Source of the DNA: a virus
Length of the DNA stretch: 21,043 nucleotides
Virus record (IMG/VR): IMGVR_UViG_3300025168_000826
Span: 1-21,043 of that record
Strand: one strand, 5' to 3'
Position numbers and translations under genes: made by a program. This document shows, in pieces, positions 3,389 to 20,316 of this stretch. Positions within the stretch are counted from its first letter, which is position 1. Every line of letters begins with the position of its first letter. The notes below the pieces were generated by a model that saw only the letters and a program-made list of their open reading frames with translations, made no database searches and was not told where the DNA came from.

Positions 3389-4618
3389 TTAAATAATTAT
3401 CTTAAATATTGTTTCTTTTTTCTTTGTCTTGTTTACTGATTTAGCATTATAAGATGAAAGTTCTTTCTTTATATTATATCCCTCCCATTTATCTGTTTCC
3501 TGTAAATCTATTCTCATGTCATGCCTACCGTCTTCCGTAAATATGTAAATGTTTTGAGCAGCTGTTCCAGATAGATTTAAAGCATGATCAGAATAAGCAT
3601 TACTTCCAACTAGAGAAGCTGATCTGCAAATGTTATCCCTAATCATTGTTTCATGTAAATGTCCACAAATAATCATGTCAATTATTATTCCCCTTTGAGC
3701 ATACTTAGAAATAACTCTTCCTACTATATTGGAATCCATCTTTCCCAACTGGTGCCCATGAATAACCAACATATTTTTTCCAGCAACTTCAACAACTAAT
3801 TCCAAAGGTTTCCCAGTTATAAAGTTAATATCTGGCAATAATAACCTCAACATTTCAAATATTGTAAAATCATAATTATTTGAACTGATTAAATTAACCC
3901 ATCCTAATTCCTGTTCTACTCTGGATTCGTTTCCAGTAACACAACAAACCTGAATATTTGCAACTTGATTAAGGTCCAATATAAAGTGTTTTAAGAGATG
4001 AACTCCCAGAAAGGTAGCTTTTGCCCTATTTGTAGCCATACTCATTAATTCATCTAACCTCCTATCACTATTGATTAAATCCCCAGTGATTGCAATTAAT
4101 ATATTTTTACATTTATAAAATTTTGAAAGTCCTTTTATTTTTGAAGCAAATTTTTGCAACCTTTTTGAAGCAATATCAAAATCATATTTATTCCCCTCAA
4201 TATCTACCAATTCGTTAAAGTGAGTATCTGCAATCTGAACAACCATTGTTGCACCTTGTGAATCTTTATGTTTTTTTATTTTAACTTCCAGAGATTCCTT
4301 CTTTAATAACTTTATAAGTTCTTTATTGTATTCCTCCAGAGCGTTCTCTTTCCTAGTTCCCTCTCTAAATACCTTGGTTTTCATCCTGTTGAGGTCTTGA
4401 AGTTTTTGATTCTTTTTATTTAACTTTAAACACTCATCCAATACACTTTCATCTCCTACAACATAATGAACAACTTCCTGAACTCTTTTTCTTAAATGAT
4501 CAACTGAAACTGTTAAATTAAATTTATCAATTAATATTTTAGATATCTCAATATAATTAACACCATTATCGAAATGATGCATTATTTCTTTCTTATACTT
4601 TAAATATTTATTTTTCAT
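3389..4618 (-). CDS. Calcineurin-like metallophosphoesterase with N-terminal helix-turn-helix
   Basis: The 409-residue protein starts with a helix-turn-helix-like segment (about 17-48, GVNYIEISKILIDKF then SVDHLRKRVQEVV) and a charged linker. A calcineurin-like phosphoesterase domain follows from about 124. Its metal motifs are D131-T-H133, G179-D180, G229-N-E-S232, H287-G-H289 and G319-H-L-H322. The third motif normally reads GNH(D/E); here the histidine is replaced by glutamate, while the other metal ligands are intact. Phage enzymes of this architecture are thought to act on DNA or nucleotides, but the substrate is not determinable here. The gene starts 11 bases inside the end of the holin gene and is the last gene of the late block. 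Confidence 0.85.
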   Translation of the reverse strand: MKNKYLKYKKEIMHHFDNGVNYIEISKILIDKFNLTVSVDHLRKRVQEVVHYVVGDESVLDECLKLNKKNQKLQDLNRMKTKVFREGTRKENALEEYNKELIKLLKKESLEVKIKKHKDSQGATMVVQIADTHFNELVDIEGNKYDFDIASKRLQKFASKIKGLSKFYKCKNILIAITGDLINSDRRLDELMSMATNRAKATFLGVHLLKHFILDLNQVANIQVCCVTGNESRVEQELGWVNLISSNNYDFTIFEMLRLLLPDINFITGKPLELVVEVAGKNMLVIHGHQLGKMDSNIVGRVISKYAQRGIIIDMIICGHLHETMIRDNICRSASLVGSNAYSDHALNLSGTAAQNIYIFTEDGRHDMRIDLQETDKWEGYNIKKELSSYNAKSVNKTKKKETIFKIII

Positions 4619-5006
4619 TCTTACGCTTTATTTTCTCAAGTGAACGACCACCAAAATAAGCTCCAATAACAGCCAATAAAATAAGCTCTAATAATGAAAC
4701 CCAATTATCTTCAACATGAAATTTAATCGCTCCAGCATCAATAAAAACTAATAATATTGTGGTAAAAACTAGAAAGATTAAAACCATTGGCCGCACATTT
4801 TTAGCTAGCCAACTATCTGATTGCATATCTGCCTTCCATCTTTCAGATATTTGTTCTTGCATCTTGGATTCGTGTTCTAAAATCTTTGCTTCTATCTGTT
4901 GTTTTAGAATTAATTTTTCCTCTTTGGATGTTATAACGTCATCTAAGATTTCTCCAACCTCACTTATTAACTCAGATCCACCAAATATTTTACTTAATAA
5001 ATCCAC
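4608..5006 (-). CDS. Holin of the 3TM / GTA type
   Basis: The 132-residue protein has an amphipathic N-terminal half (helices with LILKQQIEAKILEHESK) and two clear membrane segments (about 73-90, MVLIFLVFTTILLVFID, and 104-120, SLLELILLAVIGAYFGG). It ends with the basic RSLEKIKRKNEK tail. The SWLAKNVRP lead-in and GGRSLEK ending match the family named 'holin of 3TMs, for gene-transfer release'. Holins open the inner membrane at lysis so the peptidase reaches peptidoglycan. The start is a GTG at 5006 (no ATG exists before Met50), inside the last codons of the peptidase gene, so the two are translationally coupled. Confidence 0.8.
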   Translation of the reverse strand: MDLLSKIFGGSELISEVGEILDDVITSKEEKLILKQQIEAKILEHESKMQEQISERWKADMQSDSWLAKNVRPMVLIFLVFTTILLVFIDAGAIKFHVEDNWVSLLELILLAVIGAYFGGRSLEKIKRKNEK

Positions 5007-5389
5007 AGTCTTGGATTTTGTTTTGTTGTGTCAATATCAATATGAGCAAAATTACCCCCAGATTTACCAGCCAAACCAATTCTAAATGGAAGATTTAATT
5101 CAGAAGTTAATTCCATTGCATAAAAAACAAACTTAGCTCTTTTATTTGCATCACTTAATGCAATGTCTGCAGCTAGTCCTTTAAGATGTGGAGAAGTTGG
5201 AATTGTTTTATATCCTCTTTCTGTTAATGAATTATGATATTCCTTTGTTCGGAAACCACTTGTTACTCTAAAAGGAAACCCACACCTATTTCTTAATTCA
5301 TCAATAAATAAAAGAAACTCTTTATCCATGTTTTTATTTGATCCTTTAACATCTGGAGAATCAAACTCGCTTTTTTTGAAATATTTCAT
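4994..5389 (-). CDS. M15-family peptidase endolysin
   Basis: The 131-residue protein has the layout of peptidase M15A (D-Ala-D-Ala carboxypeptidase/endolysin). Visible motifs are SGFRT (44-48), SPHLKGLAAD with zinc ligands His68 and Asp75 in the expected HxxxxxxD spacing, and FAHIDID with the third zinc ligand His116. No signal peptide or membrane segment is present, so export depends on a holin. It cleaves peptide crosslinks of peptidoglycan at the end of infection. It sits between two membrane-protein genes, forming a lysis cassette. Length is normal for a single-domain phage M15 enzyme. Confidence 0.88.
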   Translation of the reverse strand: MKYFKKSEFDSPDVKGSNKNMDKEFLLFIDELRNRCGFPFRVTSGFRTKEYHNSLTERGYKTIPTSPHLKGLAADIALSDANKRAKFVFYAMELTSELNLPFRIGLAGKSGGNFAHIDIDTTKQNPRLWIY

Positions 5390-9041: not shown

Positions 9042-11183
9042 TTATGTTGTTCTTAACCTGTTATTTGATGCGTTTTGATTACTTAAAAATATATCTGATC
9101 CAATTAATTTTCCTGTTACTGTTATATTAGAATTATTTCCTCCTCCCATCATTGATTTTAATTTGTCCAATGGTGCAACAACTTCAGGATTCCCAGCATT
9201 CGTTCCAACTCCCTCTCCAATAAGAGCTGTTGTTGGTCCTGTAACTAATCCACCCTCAGCAAAAGCAGGAACTCCAATTAATGATGATAAATTTGTTTTT
9301 AATGATGAAATACTAAAAGCAGCAGCTCCTCCTCCCATCATCATATTTATTAGACTCATAACAGCCAATTGAATTAATAAACTTGTTATTGCTTTTTTTA
9401 TGTTTTTAATAAATACATCAAAGAAATTTTCCTGAGAATTTAAAGCAGAATCCAAAGAACTAGTTAAAACATCTCCAAACATTCCCATCCCAGCATTAAG
9501 AAGCTTTTGATTATCTGTTAATTCAGTTTGCCAAAATACTATTCCTGCAAACTGATCTTCTGCATTACTTATTGAGTGTGCATAAGTGTCCCAAACTAAA
9601 GCAGTATCATCAATGGAACTTTGAAAATCTTCAAAACTTTTTGTTGTTTTTTCAATTTCTTTTGTTATTTTGGTTGTTGTTATTTTTTTTGTTGGAATTT
9701 TTAAATCTATTTCTTCAGCAATTTCAGTTTTTACTACTTTATCTGTTGAAGATTCAAGTTTTTTATTTGCGTTTATTAAATCCATCACAGCTGTTATTTG
9801 ATTTTGTATATCAGCTGTAAATAAATTATACATCTTTGATCCTTTTTTAACGCCCGAAAGTTCAAATTCAAGTAATTGAGAATTTAACTCCTTAAGCTTA
9901 GTCATTGATGCTTCTGCTATAGCTTGTTGTAAAATAGAATCTGTGTAATTTTTAGTTGCAGTATCTAAAGCCTTAACATCTAAAGTTGCAGCGTTTAATT
10001 TACCATAATACTCAGGAGCTATTGTATTTAAACTGTTAAGAGCTGTTTCCTTATCTTCTAATGTTGCATTCTCATCTTTTAACGCTGTAGTCAATAAATC
10101 AACTTCAACTTTCTGCCCAATAATTGCTTTTGAAGCCATGTCATTTATATCATTAACAGCTTTTTGAGCTTCACTAACTCCAAATAATCCATCAGCCCAA
10201 TCAGTTAAAGCAACAACAACAACTCCAATTCCTACAGCTAAAGCAATATATGGATTTGCAAGTAAGAATGATCCTACAGTTTTAAGAATTCCAATTAAAG
10301 ATGAAAATGCAATAAATAATTTTCCAATAATAAAAAGAACTGGTCCGATTGCAGCTAAAATTAACCCCCATTTTACAATATTATCTTTTTGAGATTCTGA
10401 AAGACCATCAAATTTCTCAGCTAATCCAACAATCCAATCTGTAAATTGTTTCACAAATGGAATTAACCTCTCTCCAATTTGCTCTGAAAGGTCTGACAAT
10501 TGATTAGTTAATTGAGTAATAGGCCCCATTCCAGCAAGAGCGGCAGCTTCAGCACTTCCACCATATTGTTTCTCTAGTTCTGCTAATATTAAAGTTTGCG
10601 CTCCAGCTAAATCATTTGTTGCAACCATAGCTTTAACAGTTGCTTTTTGTTCTTCTGAAAATTGGATTCCCGCTCTACTTAATGCAGAAAGATTAGCAAC
10701 CGGATCATTTAATGCCTTACCAAGCATAATTGAAGCACCTTTTAAATCTCCATCAAGTCTTGTTGCTAAGTCTAAAGCTACCTCTTGAGTCTTTTTAAAT
10801 TGTTCCCCTGTTATGTTTGTAAATGTTAAAAGTTGAGCAGTAGCTCCCTTTAGTATCTCTTCATCTCCAAAAAGTGTTGTTTTTTGCAAATCAGCCGCCA
10901 TTTTTTGAAGTTTTTCAGAAGTAAAACCAACAGTGTTTCCAGTAGATTTTAATCCAGCTTCAACTTGTGCAATTGCTTTTTCTTGTTCATCAAAAGCTTT
11001 TATTGAAGCAACACCTAAACCAACAATAGGAAGAGTTAAACTTGTTGTTAAATTTTTACCAGTTTTTTCAACTGACTTTCCGAACTTTTTAAGTTTCTTT
11101 TGAGCCTTATTCATGGCTTTTTCAAACCCACCTAAATCAGCACCAAATTTGAAATTTAAAAAACCAATTGCTTTACTTGCCAT
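9042..11183 (-). CDS. Tail tape measure protein
   Basis: The 713-residue protein has the PhageMin_Tail/TP901 core near its N-terminus (about 60-230), including SIKAFDEQEKAIAQVEAGL, KGATAQLLTFTNITGEQF and ALNDPVANLSALSRAGIQF. After it lies a long hydrophobic region (about 265-330) with several membrane-like segments, then long coiled-coil helices, then a glycine/alanine-rich hydrophobic region (about 610-660). It ends with a GPTTALIGEGVG...PEVVAPLDKL block typical of tape measure C-termini. It sets tail length and is ejected during DNA entry. By the usual relation of about 0.15 nm per residue, the tail would be about 105 nm. The start overlaps the end of the chaperone reading frame. Confidence 0.93.
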   Translation of the reverse strand: MASKAIGFLNFKFGADLGGFEKAMNKAQKKLKKFGKSVEKTGKNLTTSLTLPIVGLGVASIKAFDEQEKAIAQVEAGLKSTGNTVGFTSEKLQKMAADLQKTTLFGDEEILKGATAQLLTFTNITGEQFKKTQEVALDLATRLDGDLKGASIMLGKALNDPVANLSALSRAGIQFSEEQKATVKAMVATNDLAGAQTLILAELEKQYGGSAEAAALAGMGPITQLTNQLSDLSEQIGERLIPFVKQFTDWIVGLAEKFDGLSESQKDNIVKWGLILAAIGPVLFIIGKLFIAFSSLIGILKTVGSFLLANPYIALAVGIGVVVVALTDWADGLFGVSEAQKAVNDINDMASKAIIGQKVEVDLLTTALKDENATLEDKETALNSLNTIAPEYYGKLNAATLDVKALDTATKNYTDSILQQAIAEASMTKLKELNSQLLEFELSGVKKGSKMYNLFTADIQNQITAVMDLINANKKLESSTDKVVKTEIAEEIDLKIPTKKITTTKITKEIEKTTKSFEDFQSSIDDTALVWDTYAHSISNAEDQFAGIVFWQTELTDNQKLLNAGMGMFGDVLTSSLDSALNSQENFFDVFIKNIKKAITSLLIQLAVMSLINMMMGGGAAAFSISSLKTNLSSLIGVPAFAEGGLVTGPTTALIGEGVGTNAGNPEVVAPLDKLKSMMGGGNNSNITVTGKLIGSDIFLSNQNASNNRLRTT

Positions 11184-11520
11184 TTTTTACTTTATTTTTA
11201 TATAGTTCTGCTTTCATTTTTAATTCTTCAAAATCTATTTTATTATCAGTTTCCCATTCAAACTTAATTAAGTCCTTTGGCTTGATGCTTTTGTTTTTTG
11301 GAAGTTGTATGTTCAACAGTAAACAAGTGCTCCATCTAGTCCTCTCCCAATCACTTCTTTGCCTCATATTCTCCAACTCATGAAACCCCTCAACTTTATT
11401 CCAAAACTCCCTTGGCAACATATCATAAAAATCATCCACCTTCATTCCCAACTGCCCAAATGCTATTCTCTCAAGTTTTGGCCAAGTTAGCTCTTCTTCT
11501 TTGCTCTCTTGGCCTTTATC
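11173..11520 (-). CDS. Tail assembly chaperone T-extension, reached by -1 frameshift (GT fusion)
   Basis: This frame is open, without stops, from the slippery site in the preceding gene to the TAA at 11173-11175. It lies exactly in the -1 frame of that gene. After Lys104 of the upstream protein the fused chain continues DKGQESKEEELTWPKLERIA, then FGQLGMKVDDFYDMLPREFW, a pattern common in chaperone T-type proteins (short helix, 'LG', then PREFW). The fusion would total 219 residues (104 + 115). A separate start at the ATG at 11451 would give only 92 residues and lose the conserved-looking upstream part. In siphophages the GT fusion recruits the tape measure and tail tube, and the tape measure gene follows here. 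Confidence 0.75.
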   Translation of the reverse strand, partial: DKGQESKEEELTWPKLERIAFGQLGMKVDDFYDMLPREFWNKVEGFHELENMRQRSDWERTRWSTCLLLNIQLPKNKSIKPKDLIKFEWETDNKIDFEELKMKAELYKNKVKNGK

Positions 11521-11540
11521 TTTTTTTCATCAGTTCCTCC
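11480..11540 (-). promoter_or_regulatory. Programmed -1 ribosomal frameshift signal
   Basis: Reading the minus strand: GGAGG at 11540-11536, nine bases, then the slippery heptamer A AAA AAG at 11526-11520 in the correct zero-frame phase (GAA AAA AAG). Five bases later a perfect 7-bp stem pairs GGCCAAG (11514-11508) with CTTGGCC (11486-11480) around a 21-base loop that holds the zero-frame stop. This is the same arrangement as the E. coli dnaX signal: internal Shine-Dalgarno, A AAA AAG, short spacer, stem-loop. It directs a fraction of ribosomes into the T frame. Confidence 0.8.
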
Positions 11541-11831
11541 CATTGCTCTTCCTAATATCTCAAAAGCTTTTTCCATACAATCCATGTTTCCGTCAAACAT
11601 ATCTGTTATGTCATCTAATGAGTAATGAAATGGTTTTTTTGCCGACCTGTAACCATCTTCAATTCCACAATAGATTAAACTAAAAGCATCATTAAAAGTT
11701 AATTCTCCTGAGCCTAATTTGTTTAAGTCTTTCATTGTTGATCCGGTCATTAAACTATACTTTCGCAAAGCGTTAAAACCAAATCTAACTTCCATTTTGT
11801 GTTCTCCAATCTCTAATATTTCGTATTTCAT
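11487..11831 (-). CDS. Tail assembly chaperone, G-type (zero-frame product)
   Basis: The 114-residue protein lies between the major tail protein and the tape measure genes, where siphophages encode their tail assembly chaperones. It contains FGFNALRKYSLMTGSTMKDL and a helical middle (LTFNDAFSLIYCGIEDGYRS) followed by SLDDITDMFD. This layout is common in chaperone G proteins of Gram-positive and Bacteroidota phages. The C-terminus is strongly basic (KKIKAKRAKKKS), and the bases encoding Lys103-Lys104 form the frameshift site. The short form is normally made in excess and coats the tape measure before tail polymerisation. A terminator-like hairpin lies just upstream, so expression is probably lower than for the major tail protein. 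Confidence 0.78.
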   Translation of the reverse strand: MKYEILEIGEHKMEVRFGFNALRKYSLMTGSTMKDLNKLGSGELTFNDAFSLIYCGIEDGYRSAKKPFHYSLDDITDMFDGNMDCMEKAFEILGRAMGGTDEKKIKAKRAKKKS

Positions 11832-11922: not shown

Positions 11923-12363
11923 TTAAGGAGTTATTGTTTGAACTAAAGGCCCAGATCCTTGAAAAGAAACTGAGAAAGTTGAAGTGTCCTCTAGTGGTGC
12001 TGTCAAACTGCATGAAGTTAGCCAAGCATCTCCAACATATTTCGTATCATTAGAAGCTCCTCCATTTGCTCCAAAAGTCAATTCAAAACTAGTTCTAGTT
12101 GTAAGGTATGCAGTGAAAATATCACTTAAAGTTTTGTTTGTAATTGCACTTCCTGCAGGATCTACCCACGCATAAAGAGCATCGCAAGAAACATCCCAGT
12201 TTCTTAATCCCTCCATATTATCTTCCCAACCTCCAGATTCTTTTGAAGTAGTTGATCTTGTTGAATGGTTTGCGTTTAAAGTTGCATTTGTGGAGTAAGC
12301 TACCAACACACCCGCCACATAAACACCTAATTCCGTTCCATTTAATTGTCCCTCGTTTGCCAT
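11923..12363 (-). CDS. Major tail (tube) protein, TP901-1 type
   Basis: The 146-residue protein starts MANEGQLNGTELGVYVAGVL and continues with VAYSTNATLNANHSTRSTTS and ESGGWEDNMEGLRNW. This is the usual opening of the TP901-1-type major tail protein: a beta strand with 'STN', then an 'R.T.SK..GGW' loop that stacks tube rings. The C-terminal half is an all-beta sandwich with LTFGANGG and FSVSFQGSG. It polymerises into the tail tube around the tape measure. A terminator-like hairpin follows directly, as expected for a gene needing high expression. Its length is close to the family norm. Confidence 0.88.
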   Translation of the reverse strand: MANEGQLNGTELGVYVAGVLVAYSTNATLNANHSTRSTTSKESGGWEDNMEGLRNWDVSCDALYAWVDPAGSAITNKTLSDIFTAYLTTRTSFELTFGANGGASNDTKYVGDAWLTSCSLTAPLEDTSTFSVSFQGSGPLVQTITP

Positions 12364-12814: not shown

Positions 12815-13903
12815 TTATTCTGGAACATCAGCTTGAAAATCTGTTGATGTCATATTAATCATTGTTCCGTTATTGTTTCCAGTTTCATCAACAATTGTTG
12901 GATAAGTTGCTATTGGATTTCCTACTATTCCACCATCTCCCATTTTCCAATAACCCTTCATATTGTCTAAAGGTTGAGGATTAAATGGCAATCCATCATT
13001 GTATAAATTTGATATTTCTGTTCCAGATAATTCTTTATTAAACAAAGTTACTTCATCAATATTTCCTTTCCAAAAAGCACTTCCAACGCTATTACTTCCA
13101 ATTGAAGCAGTTGTAAAACTTCCTGTAATTGCTGTTAAACCAGTTTCAGTTCCGACTTCTGTTCCATCCAAATATAGTTTTAAATTGTCTGTTACAGAAT
13201 CCCAAGTTCCAGCTAAATGATGCCAATTTCCATCGTTCTCAATTGTTGTTGAATAATTTGTTGTAGTGTTATTTCCTCCTCCTTTGTATTGAACTCTCAA
13301 TTCATTAGTAGAAGCAACATAAATTAAAGCAATATTACTATTTGAATCTACTCTAACTTGAAAAACATTCCCAGAGGTTGTTATAGTATCTAATTTTACC
13401 CAAGCTGAAATTGATCCTTTTGTTTTAACTGAACTCATTCCAGAAACACCCAAAGAAACATAATCATCAACACCATCAAAATTAGTTGAATAAATATTAT
13501 TAAATGAATTTATTATTCTAATATTAAAATTTAAAGATTTCCTATAAATTCCATCCGATCCACTCATGTCATCAAAAACATCATCATAACCATCAAAATC
13601 AATTGCCTGGATGTTTACAGCGTTATAAACTCCATTAACTCGATCCAAAGCTGTTCTTATATAGTTTGCAAGTTTTGAAGCTTCTGAGTATGTCTTACAA
13701 TAAGCAGAAACCATTATTGATGCATTATCTAATAAAGCAACAGAATCCTTTTGGCCTTCTGGAGTGTCAGAACTTACATCATAAACAATAAAAGGAAAAG
13801 GAGATGTTTGCTTCATTACATTAGGAGCAATCCTTGTGCCTACCATTGACTCAACAGCTATGTTGTCATGTAATATCTTATATATTGCTTTTCCTATATC
13901 CAT
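12815..13903 (-). CDS. Tail completion protein (DUF3168/gp17-like) fused to a LamG/concanavalin A-like lectin domain
   Basis: The 362-residue protein has two parts. Residues 1-132 look like a DUF3168-type tail completion/terminator protein: MDIGKAIYKILHDN, then SPFPFIVYDVSSDTPEG, then AYCKTYSEASKLANYIRTAL and the ISF-like NFNIRI end. Terminator proteins of this type normally stop near here. From about 138 on lies a LamG-type jelly roll: NFDGVDDYVSLG, GSISAWVKLD, DGNWHHLAGTWD, LKLYLDGTEVG and GNIDEVTLFNKELSGTEI, followed by MKGYWKMGDG and TGNNNGTMI. Both parts are in one uninterrupted frame. The first should close the tail tube at the head, and the second would expose a sugar-binding domain at the virion neck. 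The gene sits directly after the HK97 gp10-like gene, which supports the first assignment. Confidence 0.82.
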   Translation of the reverse strand: MDIGKAIYKILHDNIAVESMVGTRIAPNVMKQTSPFPFIVYDVSSDTPEGQKDSVALLDNASIMVSAYCKTYSEASKLANYIRTALDRVNGVYNAVNIQAIDFDGYDDVFDDMSGSDGIYRKSLNFNIRIINSFNNIYSTNFDGVDDYVSLGVSGMSSVKTKGSISAWVKLDTITTSGNVFQVRVDSNSNIALIYVASTNELRVQYKGGGNNTTTNYSTTIENDGNWHHLAGTWDSVTDNLKLYLDGTEVGTETGLTAITGSFTTASIGSNSVGSAFWKGNIDEVTLFNKELSGTEISNLYNDGLPFNPQPLDNMKGYWKMGDGGIVGNPIATYPTIVDETGNNNGTMINMTSTDFQADVPE

Positions 13904-17347: not shown

Positions 17348-18538
17348 TTAAGCTTCTTCATCTGTTCCAATTTTGTTTATTGTTGTCATATTTAATGGAA
17401 GATAATTATTATCTCCATCTTCTATTCTGTTTAAATCTTCTTTTTGTCTTACTTCATTAACACTCATCCAACCATTTGTGATTGCTGTTTTGTAGTAGTC
17501 GGCTCTATCTTTTACGTTTCCTCTAAGTAATCCATTTACATTAAATTTAATATATTCTCTACCAATTACATTTTTTCTGAAAAGTTTCAAACTCATTTCC
17601 AATTCTATCTTTGTAATATAAGGCATTAAAGAATAAGAAACAAATTCCTGAGATTGCATTTCTATATTATTAAAACTTGATTTTGATAAGTCCCTTAATA
17701 AGTGAGGAGGGATTCCAAAAATACGGGCCACCTCTTCCACTGAAAATTGTCTTGATGCTAAAAACTGAGCTTGGTCTGGAGTTACTGATATACTTTTATA
17801 TTTTAATCCTTCCTCTAACACCGCCGTTTGGTTACTACCGCTTAAAGTTCCATAATTACTGTTAAATGAATTCCTCAGTCTATCAATGGCTTGTTCCGAA
17901 AGTGCTCGGTCAGATTCTAATATTCCGGATAATTTGCCTCCGTTTTTGAAAAATGTGCTGGAATAGGTTTGCACATCCATACCCCAACCAATTGCGTTTT
18001 TACATTGTTCGATTGGAGATAGTCCCTTAATTCCATCTGGTCCTGTTATCATTTTAAAATGAAGTATGTTTTCAGAGTCATGAGTTTCTCCAGTTTTCTC
18101 ATCACTATAATAAAGTTTGTTTTCTAAAGTGTAAATTTCAACATCTCCATAATTTAATGGCAGTAATTCTATAACTCTTCCAGCTCCATTTCTTACAATT
18201 TTAACATAAGAGTTCCCATCCGAAAGCATATCCATAATTATCTTTTCATAAAAAGTAATTTTGTTTTGATATGAATTTGGTTGGTATTTTACAAGAAACG
18301 CAAGATCTGTTGTAATTTCTGTATTATCCCCATTGTTTTCTTTTCTAAAAACTCCAACAGGTAAAGTTGAAATACTTTCAGAAAGTATTCTCATAGCAGC
18401 CCAAACAGCAGAAAAAGTTAAAGCTGATTCAGCAGAAACTTGTTGAGCAGGTCCAAATGGCAAAGAGTAATTTATGCTCCTTTCTTCCTTTTTAGGAGTT
18501 TTAGAAAATATGTTTTGAATTGAATTGAGTATTCCCAC
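17348..18538 (-). CDS. Portal protein, HK97 family
   Basis: The 396-residue protein begins MGILNSIQNIFSKTPKKEER and continues VSAESALTFSAVWAAMRILS and ESISTLPVGVF, the standard HK97-type portal opening. Further along are FYEKIIMDMLSDGNSYVKIV, ILHFKMITGPDGIKGLSPI, WGMDVQTYSSTFFKNGGKLS, the ARIFGIPPHLLRDLSKSSFN helix and a WMSVNEVRQKEDLN C-terminal block, in family order. It forms the dodecameric ring at the packaging vertex. It follows the terminase genes after a small unknown. Length is normal. Confidence 0.96.
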   Translation of the reverse strand: MGILNSIQNIFSKTPKKEERSINYSLPFGPAQQVSAESALTFSAVWAAMRILSESISTLPVGVFRKENNGDNTEITTDLAFLVKYQPNSYQNKITFYEKIIMDMLSDGNSYVKIVRNGAGRVIELLPLNYGDVEIYTLENKLYYSDEKTGETHDSENILHFKMITGPDGIKGLSPIEQCKNAIGWGMDVQTYSSTFFKNGGKLSGILESDRALSEQAIDRLRNSFNSNYGTLSGSNQTAVLEEGLKYKSISVTPDQAQFLASRQFSVEEVARIFGIPPHLLRDLSKSSFNNIEMQSQEFVSYSLMPYITKIELEMSLKLFRKNVIGREYIKFNVNGLLRGNVKDRADYYKTAITNGWMSVNEVRQKEDLNRIEDGDNNYLPLNMTTINKIGTDEEA

Positions 18539-18572
18539 TAAATAATTTTTTGCAATTATACGATATGATTCC

Positions 18573-18773
18573 TTATTTTTTGTGTAGCATTGTTTCCTTT
18601 ACTTTTCTATCTCTACAAACTCTGAAAGAATTATAATCAGAATATTTTCTTTTTCCAAAGATTTCAATGTGTTCCTTTTCTAATGATTCATAAGCAGATT
18701 TTAAAGTTTTATGTTCTTTTACTTTCTCCCAGAATTCTCTCACGAATCCAGTTGCCGAATATATTCTTATCAT
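18573..18773 (-). CDS. Small hypothetical protein between terminase and portal
   Basis: The 66-residue protein is basic and mostly helical (MIRIYSATGFVREFWEKVKE, then LKSAYESLEKEHIEIFGKRK), ending in ETMLHKK. It is not assigned to a family. The ATG lies one base after the large terminase stop, which argues for translation by coupling. Its helical hairpin look and 'Y.S...FR.C.DRKVKE' end could suit a small DNA-binding or assembly protein, but nothing diagnostic is visible. Confidence 0.65.
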   Translation of the reverse strand: MIRIYSATGFVREFWEKVKEHKTLKSAYESLEKEHIEIFGKRKYSDYNSFRVCRDRKVKETMLHKK

Positions 18774-18774
18774 A

Positions 18775-20316
18775 TTATAAAATTAAAAGTCCTCTTCCAT
18801 CATAAACAGAATTTATATTTCCCTCAGTCATGTAACTTCCAAGAGCTTGAATTAAAGCAACAACCCCATCAATTTTCTCAGTTGATTTTGCCTTGTTTGG
18901 TTTTATGTTTCCAGCAGGATCTTCCTGAAGTGCTATGTTTGAAAGCATCCAACTCATAACAGGATTTCCATCATGAATTATTTGTTGTCCTAAAATAAGT
19001 TTTTCAAGTTCTTTTGTTGGAGCGCTCATTGATTGAAACCCTTGACCAAATGGCTCCATTGGAACATTCTCATTTGTTAAGTCAATTACTAATTGAGAAG
19101 CGTTCCATCTATCATAACAAATTGATTGTATTCTAAATTGCATACCTAACTGCATTATTTTTTCCTTTATGAAATTATAATCTGCAACATCTCCACTTGT
19201 TGCAATAACATGATTTTGTTTTATCCATGTAACATAATCAACTTTGTCCCGATCACTTCTTTTCTTTGCGTTATCTTCTGGAATGAAAAAATAAGGAACT
19301 ACTAAAAATTTATCATCTTCTTTAAATATTAAAACTAAAGCAGAAATATCCCGAGTTGATGCAAGATCTAAACCTCCCCAACATTCCTTATCTTTCAATC
19401 TTTCCAAATCAATTTCCCCTTGGCAAAGTTCCCATTCTTTATTTCCAATCCATGCAGTTTGTGAGTCGGTCCACTGGTCCAACATTAATCTTCTAAATGT
19501 ATTTTGATAAGATGGAACATCCATTGCTCTTTTAGATTCTCTTTCCATGTATTCTTTTCTCAAGCTAACTCCATAATTTGGATTTGCTTTTATCCAAGTT
19601 GATTCCAGAGTTATGTCATCTTCAGGATCAGCTTCATAAATTGCAGAATAAAAAGTTTCATCTTCAATTATTCCATCCTGAACTTTCTTTGCATAATCAT
19701 ATACTTCATAGCAAATAGAATTTCTATCATATCCCGCTGTTGTTATTGCAATACATAATGGCTCTCTTCTACTTCCTGTTGAAGTTACTAAGGTGTCCCA
19801 GAGCGAACGATTTTCCTGAGTGTGTAATTCATCAAAAATTATGCAGTTAGCATTAAATCCATGTTTCGTTTTTGAGTCTGAACTTATAGCTTGATAAAAG
19901 TTTCCTTTACTTTCGTTTGTTATTGAGTTTCTAAAAACTTTAGAACGACCTGTTAATTCTGTATTATTTAAAATCATTTGTTTTGCTATTTCAAAAACAA
20001 TTCCCGCTTGAGCTCTATCCCCAGCAGCTGAGTAAATTTCTGATCCTCTTTCACTATCTGCAAATAACATGTAAAGTCCTATTGCCGCGCAAAGAGTAGA
20101 CTTCCCATTTTTTCTGGGCACCATAATAAAAGCAGTTCTATACTTACGATTCCCATCTTCATTTTTCCAACCGAACAAATCTCCAATTATTTTCTTTTGC
20201 CATTCTTCCATCAACAATGGCTCTTGATGAAGTTCCCCTTTTGTATGCGAGCAAAAATTTTCAATAAATCCAATTGCTTTTGCAGCAGCCTTTTTGTCAA
20301 AATAAAAGTTATTCAA
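18775..20316 (-). CDS. terL: Terminase large subunit
   Basis: The 513-residue protein has the ATPase motor with Walker A at PRKNGKS (67-73) and Walker B at CIIFDE (158-163). The coupling motif ITTAGYD (191-197) follows, matching the Terminase_1/HK97-like class. The C-terminal RNase H-like nuclease shows its acidic residues at GGLDLASTRD (Asp317), ICYDRWNA (Asp402) and KIDGVVALIQAL (Asp483). It translocates and cuts phage DNA at the portal. The start overlaps the small-subunit stop by a few bases, and its stop lies one base before the next ATG. Confidence 0.97.
   Translation of the reverse strand: MNNFYFDKKAAAKAIGFIENFCSHTKGELHQEPLLMEEWQKKIIGDLFGWKNEDGNRKYRTAFIMVPRKNGKSTLCAAIGLYMLFADSERGSEIYSAAGDRAQAGIVFEIAKQMILNNTELTGRSKVFRNSITNESKGNFYQAISSDSKTKHGFNANCIIFDELHTQENRSLWDTLVTSTGSRREPLCIAITTAGYDRNSICYEVYDYAKKVQDGIIEDETFYSAIYEADPEDDITLESTWIKANPNYGVSLRKEYMERESKRAMDVPSYQNTFRRLMLDQWTDSQTAWIGNKEWELCQGEIDLERLKDKECWGGLDLASTRDISALVLIFKEDDKFLVVPYFFIPEDNAKKRSDRDKVDYVTWIKQNHVIATSGDVADYNFIKEKIMQLGMQFRIQSICYDRWNASQLVIDLTNENVPMEPFGQGFQSMSAPTKELEKLILGQQIIHDGNPVMSWMLSNIALQEDPAGNIKPNKAKSTEKIDGVVALIQALGSYMTEGNINSVYDGRGLLIL

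Follow-up and report, generated by a model that had tools for sequence, protein, structure and literature searches.

The window, that is, the whole stretch of DNA analysed here, is the complete IMG/VR record IMGVR_UViG_3300025168_000826 of 21,043 bases, probably a genome fragment, in which nearly all genes are located on the minus strand. According to the open reading frames and their matches to Pfam and phrog families, the gene order resembles that of siphoviruses: terminase, portal, capsid, connectors, tail tube, two overlapping frames designated G and T, and tape measure. The G/T pair is placed between the genes for the major tail protein and the tape measure protein, which is the position characteristic of the G/GT frameshift class (Table 1).

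Table 1. Features of the G/T region and the flanking genes (positions in the window)
Feature	Position	Strand	Basis
Major tail (tube) protein gene, upstream of G	11923..12363	-	Pfam Phage_tail_2, E 1e-11; phrog_1407
Gene G (0 frame, 114 aa), putative tail assembly chaperone	11487..11831	-	ORF; phrog_2115; fold; gene order
GGAGG, SD-like, internal to G (codons ATG GGA GGA)	11536..11540	-	read directly; varies in relatives
Slippery heptamer A AAA AAG, 0-frame phase	11520..11526	-	read directly; relatives
Stem 5' arm GGCCAAG, 5 nt past the heptamer (11519-11515)	11508..11514	-	sequence, folding, relatives
G stop TAA, in the hairpin loop	11487..11489	-	read directly
Stem 3' arm CTTGGCC	11480..11486	-	pairing maintained by compensating changes in L120 and L191/L192
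T frame (-1 with respect to G); 115 codons past the slip, then the stop	11173..11520	-	Phage_TAC_6 (weak); phrog_16333, E 3e-23; family alignment
Tape measure protein gene, downstream of T	9042..11183	-	phrog_27166, E 3e-57

The 3' end of G reads, in the 0 frame, ATG GGA GGA ACT GAT GAA AAA AAG ATA AAG GCC AAG ... AGC TAA. The Shine-Dalgarno-like (SD-like) GGAGG is separated from the heptamer by 9 bases (11535-11527), and downstream of the latter GGCCAAG and CTTGGCC form a perfect 7-bp pairing; a further 3-bp helix is predicted inside this hairpin, with the TAA overlapping its 3' side. The -1 frame is closed by a TGA directly 5' of the heptamer (11529-11527), and its next stop is found only at 11175-11173. 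G and T share about 40 nt, and a slip at the heptamer is predicted to join 104 residues of G to 115 encoded by T in a 219-residue fusion. The geometry of GGAGG, heptamer and stem described in a first-pass annotation of this DNA was thereby confirmed to the base, as were the open -1 frame and the length of the fusion.

Of the 6305 codon positions of the window genes, 4 have A AAA AAG in phase, and 0.04% of random positions are followed 3-9 nt downstream by a 7-bp stem in which one arm contains four or more G/C. The presence of both in the sole stretch permitting a shift is well beyond chance. GGAGG by itself is unremarkable in the window, where its coding-strand copies number 31 and 1.1% of random positions have one 5-15 nt upstream. 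The predicted folding of a 121-nt region is only modestly better than that of shuffled sequences (z-score -1.9), and so the support for the stem comes mainly from comparison with related phages.

For this comparison viral contigs were searched with the T frame and the G frame, which yielded more than 200 loci; after the removal of duplicates and unsuitable loci 132 distinct sites were retained, 122 from a marine family and 10 from more distant phages, the clean tally leaving out Cellulophaga phage phi39:1 (L123). A -1 heptamer of the X XXY YYZ type, in phase and inside the overlap, is present in all 122 marine sites, as A AAA AAG in 112 and as G GGA AAG in 10, as befits the G/GT class; thus no case was found of a marine phage retaining both genes without the heptamer, the observation that would have spoken against the signal. 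The distance from the heptamer to the 6-bp core of the stem is 6 nt in 121 sites and 5 nt in one. The core itself is GCCAAG/CTTGGC in 119 sites, GCCAAC/GTTGGC in two (L191, L192) and CCCAGC/GCTGGG in one (L120), while in L208, a relative of phi39:1, G GGA AAG is followed by a hairpin of another sequence made up of G and C only, CCCCG/CGGGG. Among the aligned sites the pairing thus survives through compensating changes in separate lineages. As in signals of the dnaX type, the stem lies at a fixed distance from the heptamer, and a stimulatory role can be predicted for it. Consensus folding of 35 representatives gives the same stem as in the window, and the G stop falls inside the hairpin loop in 121/121 sites.

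The 3' arm of the stem lies past the G stop and is coding in the T frame only; among the non-redundant representatives with Thr ahead of the Trp in this arm, the Thr codon is ACT in 28/28 against a background of 39%, although these sequences are related and do not amount to 28 independent events. As both frames are coding in the 5' arm, the GCC codon bias there was not counted as evidence. No conserved helix of a pseudoknot between the hairpin loop and the downstream sequence was detected across the sites, the pairings seen being mostly 4-bp chance pairs. In relatives of the Bacteroides type the overlap contains A AAA AAA, and T is in the -1 frame. An indel, likely a sequencing error, disrupts T in two loci, L063 and L084 (IMGVR_UViG_3300000101_000257), 3' of a heptamer and stem that are intact. 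Unlike in the other relatives examined, where the relation is -1, in phages phi39:1 (L123, 1445-1460) and phi18:1 (L124, 1511-1532) T is +1/-2 relative to G across a run of A8 or A9. Slippage during transcription could account for this, as could a shift of -2 or +1 or errors in homopolymer length in the database entries.

With respect to the proteins, G matches phrog_2115, annotated as 'tail protein' (E 1.4e-6); no Pfam match was found for the window G itself, and its distant relatives give matches to Phage_TAC_11 and TAC_12. Modelled with AlphaFold2, G reaches a mean pLDDT of 78, with low confidence for the 16 C-terminal residues, which contain the slip site. In BFVD the fold of this model is matched by viral tail assembly chaperones; no convincing match to solved structures was obtained by sequence or by fold. 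In its fold, phrog match, relatives and position, G resembles a tail assembly chaperone. T matches phrog_16333, as well as Pfam Phage_TAC_6 (PF09550) at E 0.007, its 17.2 bits being below the curated cut-off of 23.4; 5/21 T members match PF09550 at E<=0.05. The T model is weaker than that of G (pTM 0.46), and no convincing match of T to solved structures was found by sequence. The first ATG, GTG or TTG of the T frame lies past a conserved TW motif at the beginning of the T domain, in the window with TTG 25 and ATG 27 codons in, so that the second frame, as in the G/GT class, is in the -1 position and has no start of its own ahead of the conserved domain. Two viral proteins of greater length, A0A0K1LMC7 (247 aa) and A0A345ARN5 (195 aa, 'tail assembly protein'), match the models of both G and T, the T matches being weak; such dual matches are consistent with a natural GT fusion. 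In the isolated Cellulophaga and Bacteroides phages related to the window the pair is annotated as two separate hypothetical proteins, and the frameshift is therefore unannotated there.

The closest isolated phages that possess the T family have Cellulophaga (Flavobacteriaceae) and Bacteroides as hosts, and the start codons of the window (326-20785, minus strand) avoid SD sequences: the mean pairing energy is +0.2 kcal/mol compared with -2.1 kcal/mol at random positions, with 0/26 start codons showing SD pairing at -8 kcal/mol or better. SD-poor initiation regions have been described for Bacteroidia (PMC6847099, PMC9976891). The host of this phage can reasonably be placed among the Bacteroidota on the basis of the isolates and the initiation regions; the narrower proposal of a flavobacterial host was a guess, and no host genome could be matched to it. 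Two scans of genome contigs gave no prophage relatives.

The role of GGAGG deserves separate consideration, since the signal had initially been described as a complete triad of the dnaX type, in which GGAGG, pairing with 16S rRNA during elongation, would be a required stimulator alongside the stem. Its position 9 nt upstream is near the dnaX spacing, the SD cores of relatives, where present, being usually 9-10 nt upstream of the heptamer, and of 86 windows taken along the genes, the one just 5' of the heptamer has the highest SD-like complementarity. However, GGAGG is found at only 36/133 scored sites, and 50/121 clean marine sites lack any GGAG, GAGG or AGGA core upstream (e.g., ATGAGTGATGGAAATGAAAAAAAG in L033), which means that about 40% of the sites, while keeping the heptamer and the stem, lack this element of the triad or have it in degraded form. 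GGAGG derives from Met-Gly-Gly codons, GGA being the preferred Gly codon among the relatives, and resampling of synonymous codons indicates that the anti-SD complementarity is mostly explained by the amino acids; a small synonymous excess is seen in the non-redundant set (z -4.0; control windows have a standard deviation of 1.7, and 7% of them reach -3.5). No association was found between the presence of SD and the type of heptamer (Fisher p 0.74 for all sites, 0.34 for the non-redundant set). Judging from these sites, the signal does not include SD as a conserved element, and in some lineages SD may act as a helper. The idea that the stem does the work fared better, the hairpin being the likely stimulator as the element kept where GGAGG varies. 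It had also been argued that an internal GGAGG stimulator would be unexpected in such a host. In agreement with this, PMC9976891 describes the anti-SD as sequestered in Bacteroidia ribosomes, and the start codons of the window phage are without SD; on the other hand, the SD-containing +1 frameshift site of prfB is retained in 72% of 726 Bacteroidia genomes (PMC8710568), and an internal SD acting during elongation is consequently possible there, even if the family of the window is independent of it. The efficiency of the prfB frameshift is reported to be low in F. johnsoniae (Naeem 2024, as cited in PMC12421855). On balance, GGAGG as a required stimulator seems improbable.

Two other explanations dispense with ribosomal slippage altogether. 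Slippage of the RNA polymerase on the run of seven A at the heptamer, yielding mRNAs that encode the fusion, would have a precedent in transcriptional slippage documented on A9 runs (PMC5009743), and runs of A8-A9 are seen among distant relatives. Ten sites, however, carry G GGA AAG with no long homopolymer, in the same X XXY YYZ phase and at the same spacing from the stem; such a switch between A AAA AAG and G GGA AAG favours tandem slippage of tRNAs over homopolymer slippage during transcription. A hairpin at a fixed distance downstream is also a feature that matters to ribosomes rather than to the polymerase, and this explanation must be considered very unlikely. No more credence can be given to the separate synthesis of T by re-initiation past the G stop, with the overlap being incidental. 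An overlap of about 40 nt does resemble that of coupled genes, and in phi18:1 T is annotated with an ATG of its own, yet in the family of the window there is no start ahead of the TW motif, the starts available would drop the N-terminal part of the T domain, and re-initiation gives no reason for the fixed spacing between heptamer and stem.

Programmed -1 ribosomal frameshifting producing a G/GT pair, with the hairpin as the main stimulator and the upstream GGAGG as an optional element, is thus very probably the correct reading of the locus. That the shift takes place we infer from the signal, its fixed spacing and conservation, the compensating changes in the stem and the fact that T has no start codon of its own ahead of its conserved domain, all of them legible in the genomes compared. 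The majority of ribosomes would translate G and end at the TAA (11489-11487), while a minority, held by the hairpin, would slip back by one base on A AAA AAG and complete the GT fusion; in the G/GT class such a fusion is produced at a low and defined ratio. By analogy with lambda, the tape measure protein would be coated by G and the tail tube subunits would be recruited by GT. GGAGG probably adds little in this host.

A -1 slip yielding a longer version of the tail chaperone is known in many tailed phages, and the kind of frameshift considered here is therefore already well established, the window presenting the lambda G/GT arrangement. As in lambda gpG/gpGT and the HK97-type phages (Xu, Hendrix, Duda 2004; review in PMC5009743), the overlapping frames lie between the tail tube and tape measure genes and a -1 shift shortly before the first of them ends gives a short G and an extended GT, here predicted. 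Unlike in those families, T is nearest to Phage_TAC_6 and the G relatives to TAC_11/12, and the heptamer, A AAA AAG or G GGA AAG, is followed by a strict hairpin 5-6 nt downstream. In gene transfer agents g10 is followed by a small gene, and the two form a pair corresponding to Pfam TAC_11 and TAC_6. The G relatives match PF11836 (best E 7.5e-6) and the T members PF09550 weakly, as in that pair; the window differs from it in the missing Pfam match of G and in a T match under the curated cut-off. Like the window, E. coli dnaX has A AAA AAG as its heptamer and a stem 3' of it, and, as regards the SD-like sequence at a similar spacing, the likeness holds for the window phage alone; SD is variable in the window's family, the gene is a different one, and the shift lengthens the protein instead of shortening it. 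Halothiobacillus cso2 (PMC5009743) also combines a -1 shift and a 3' stem-loop with apparently no 5' SD stimulator, but it is a carboxysome gene with a more complex stem and an efficiency of about 50%.

What appears to be new is the contrast between a constant heptamer and hairpin and an SD-like sequence that is present in some relatives and missing from others. A large, apparently unannotated marine phage family with a conserved tail-chaperone frameshift signal can be added to those known, and it sits in a bacterial group in which stimulation by SD is doubted. The literature searched, to which most subscription journals did not belong, contained no account of such a signal from phages of Cellulophaga or Flavobacterium. 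It may tentatively be proposed, though with some doubt, that phages of Bacteroidota, in whose hosts the anti-SD is occluded, rely on the heptamer and hairpin, the upstream SD being dispensable. If this were true, the lineages with a good SD could show whether anti-SD pairing is possible in elongating ribosomes of Bacteroidota, for which the natural SD-plus and SD-minus sites, with heptamer and hairpin constant, constitute a ready-made test.

The terminase and portal (17348-20316) have their closest matches in gut phages and phages of Firmicutes, and at 38-45% identity they were uninformative when tried as indicators of the host; together with the proximity of T to Bacteroidota phages they suggest a mosaic ancestry of the genome. 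The ORF at 12815-13903 combines a tail completion gp17 domain (Pfam E 2e-8) with a lectin domain of the laminin G/concanavalin-like type (Pfam E 1e-27) and may be a surface-binding decoration. It is also worth adding that two overlapping ORFs at 4608-5389 have by eye the look of a lysis pair, with a putative membrane protein and a peptidase-like protein.
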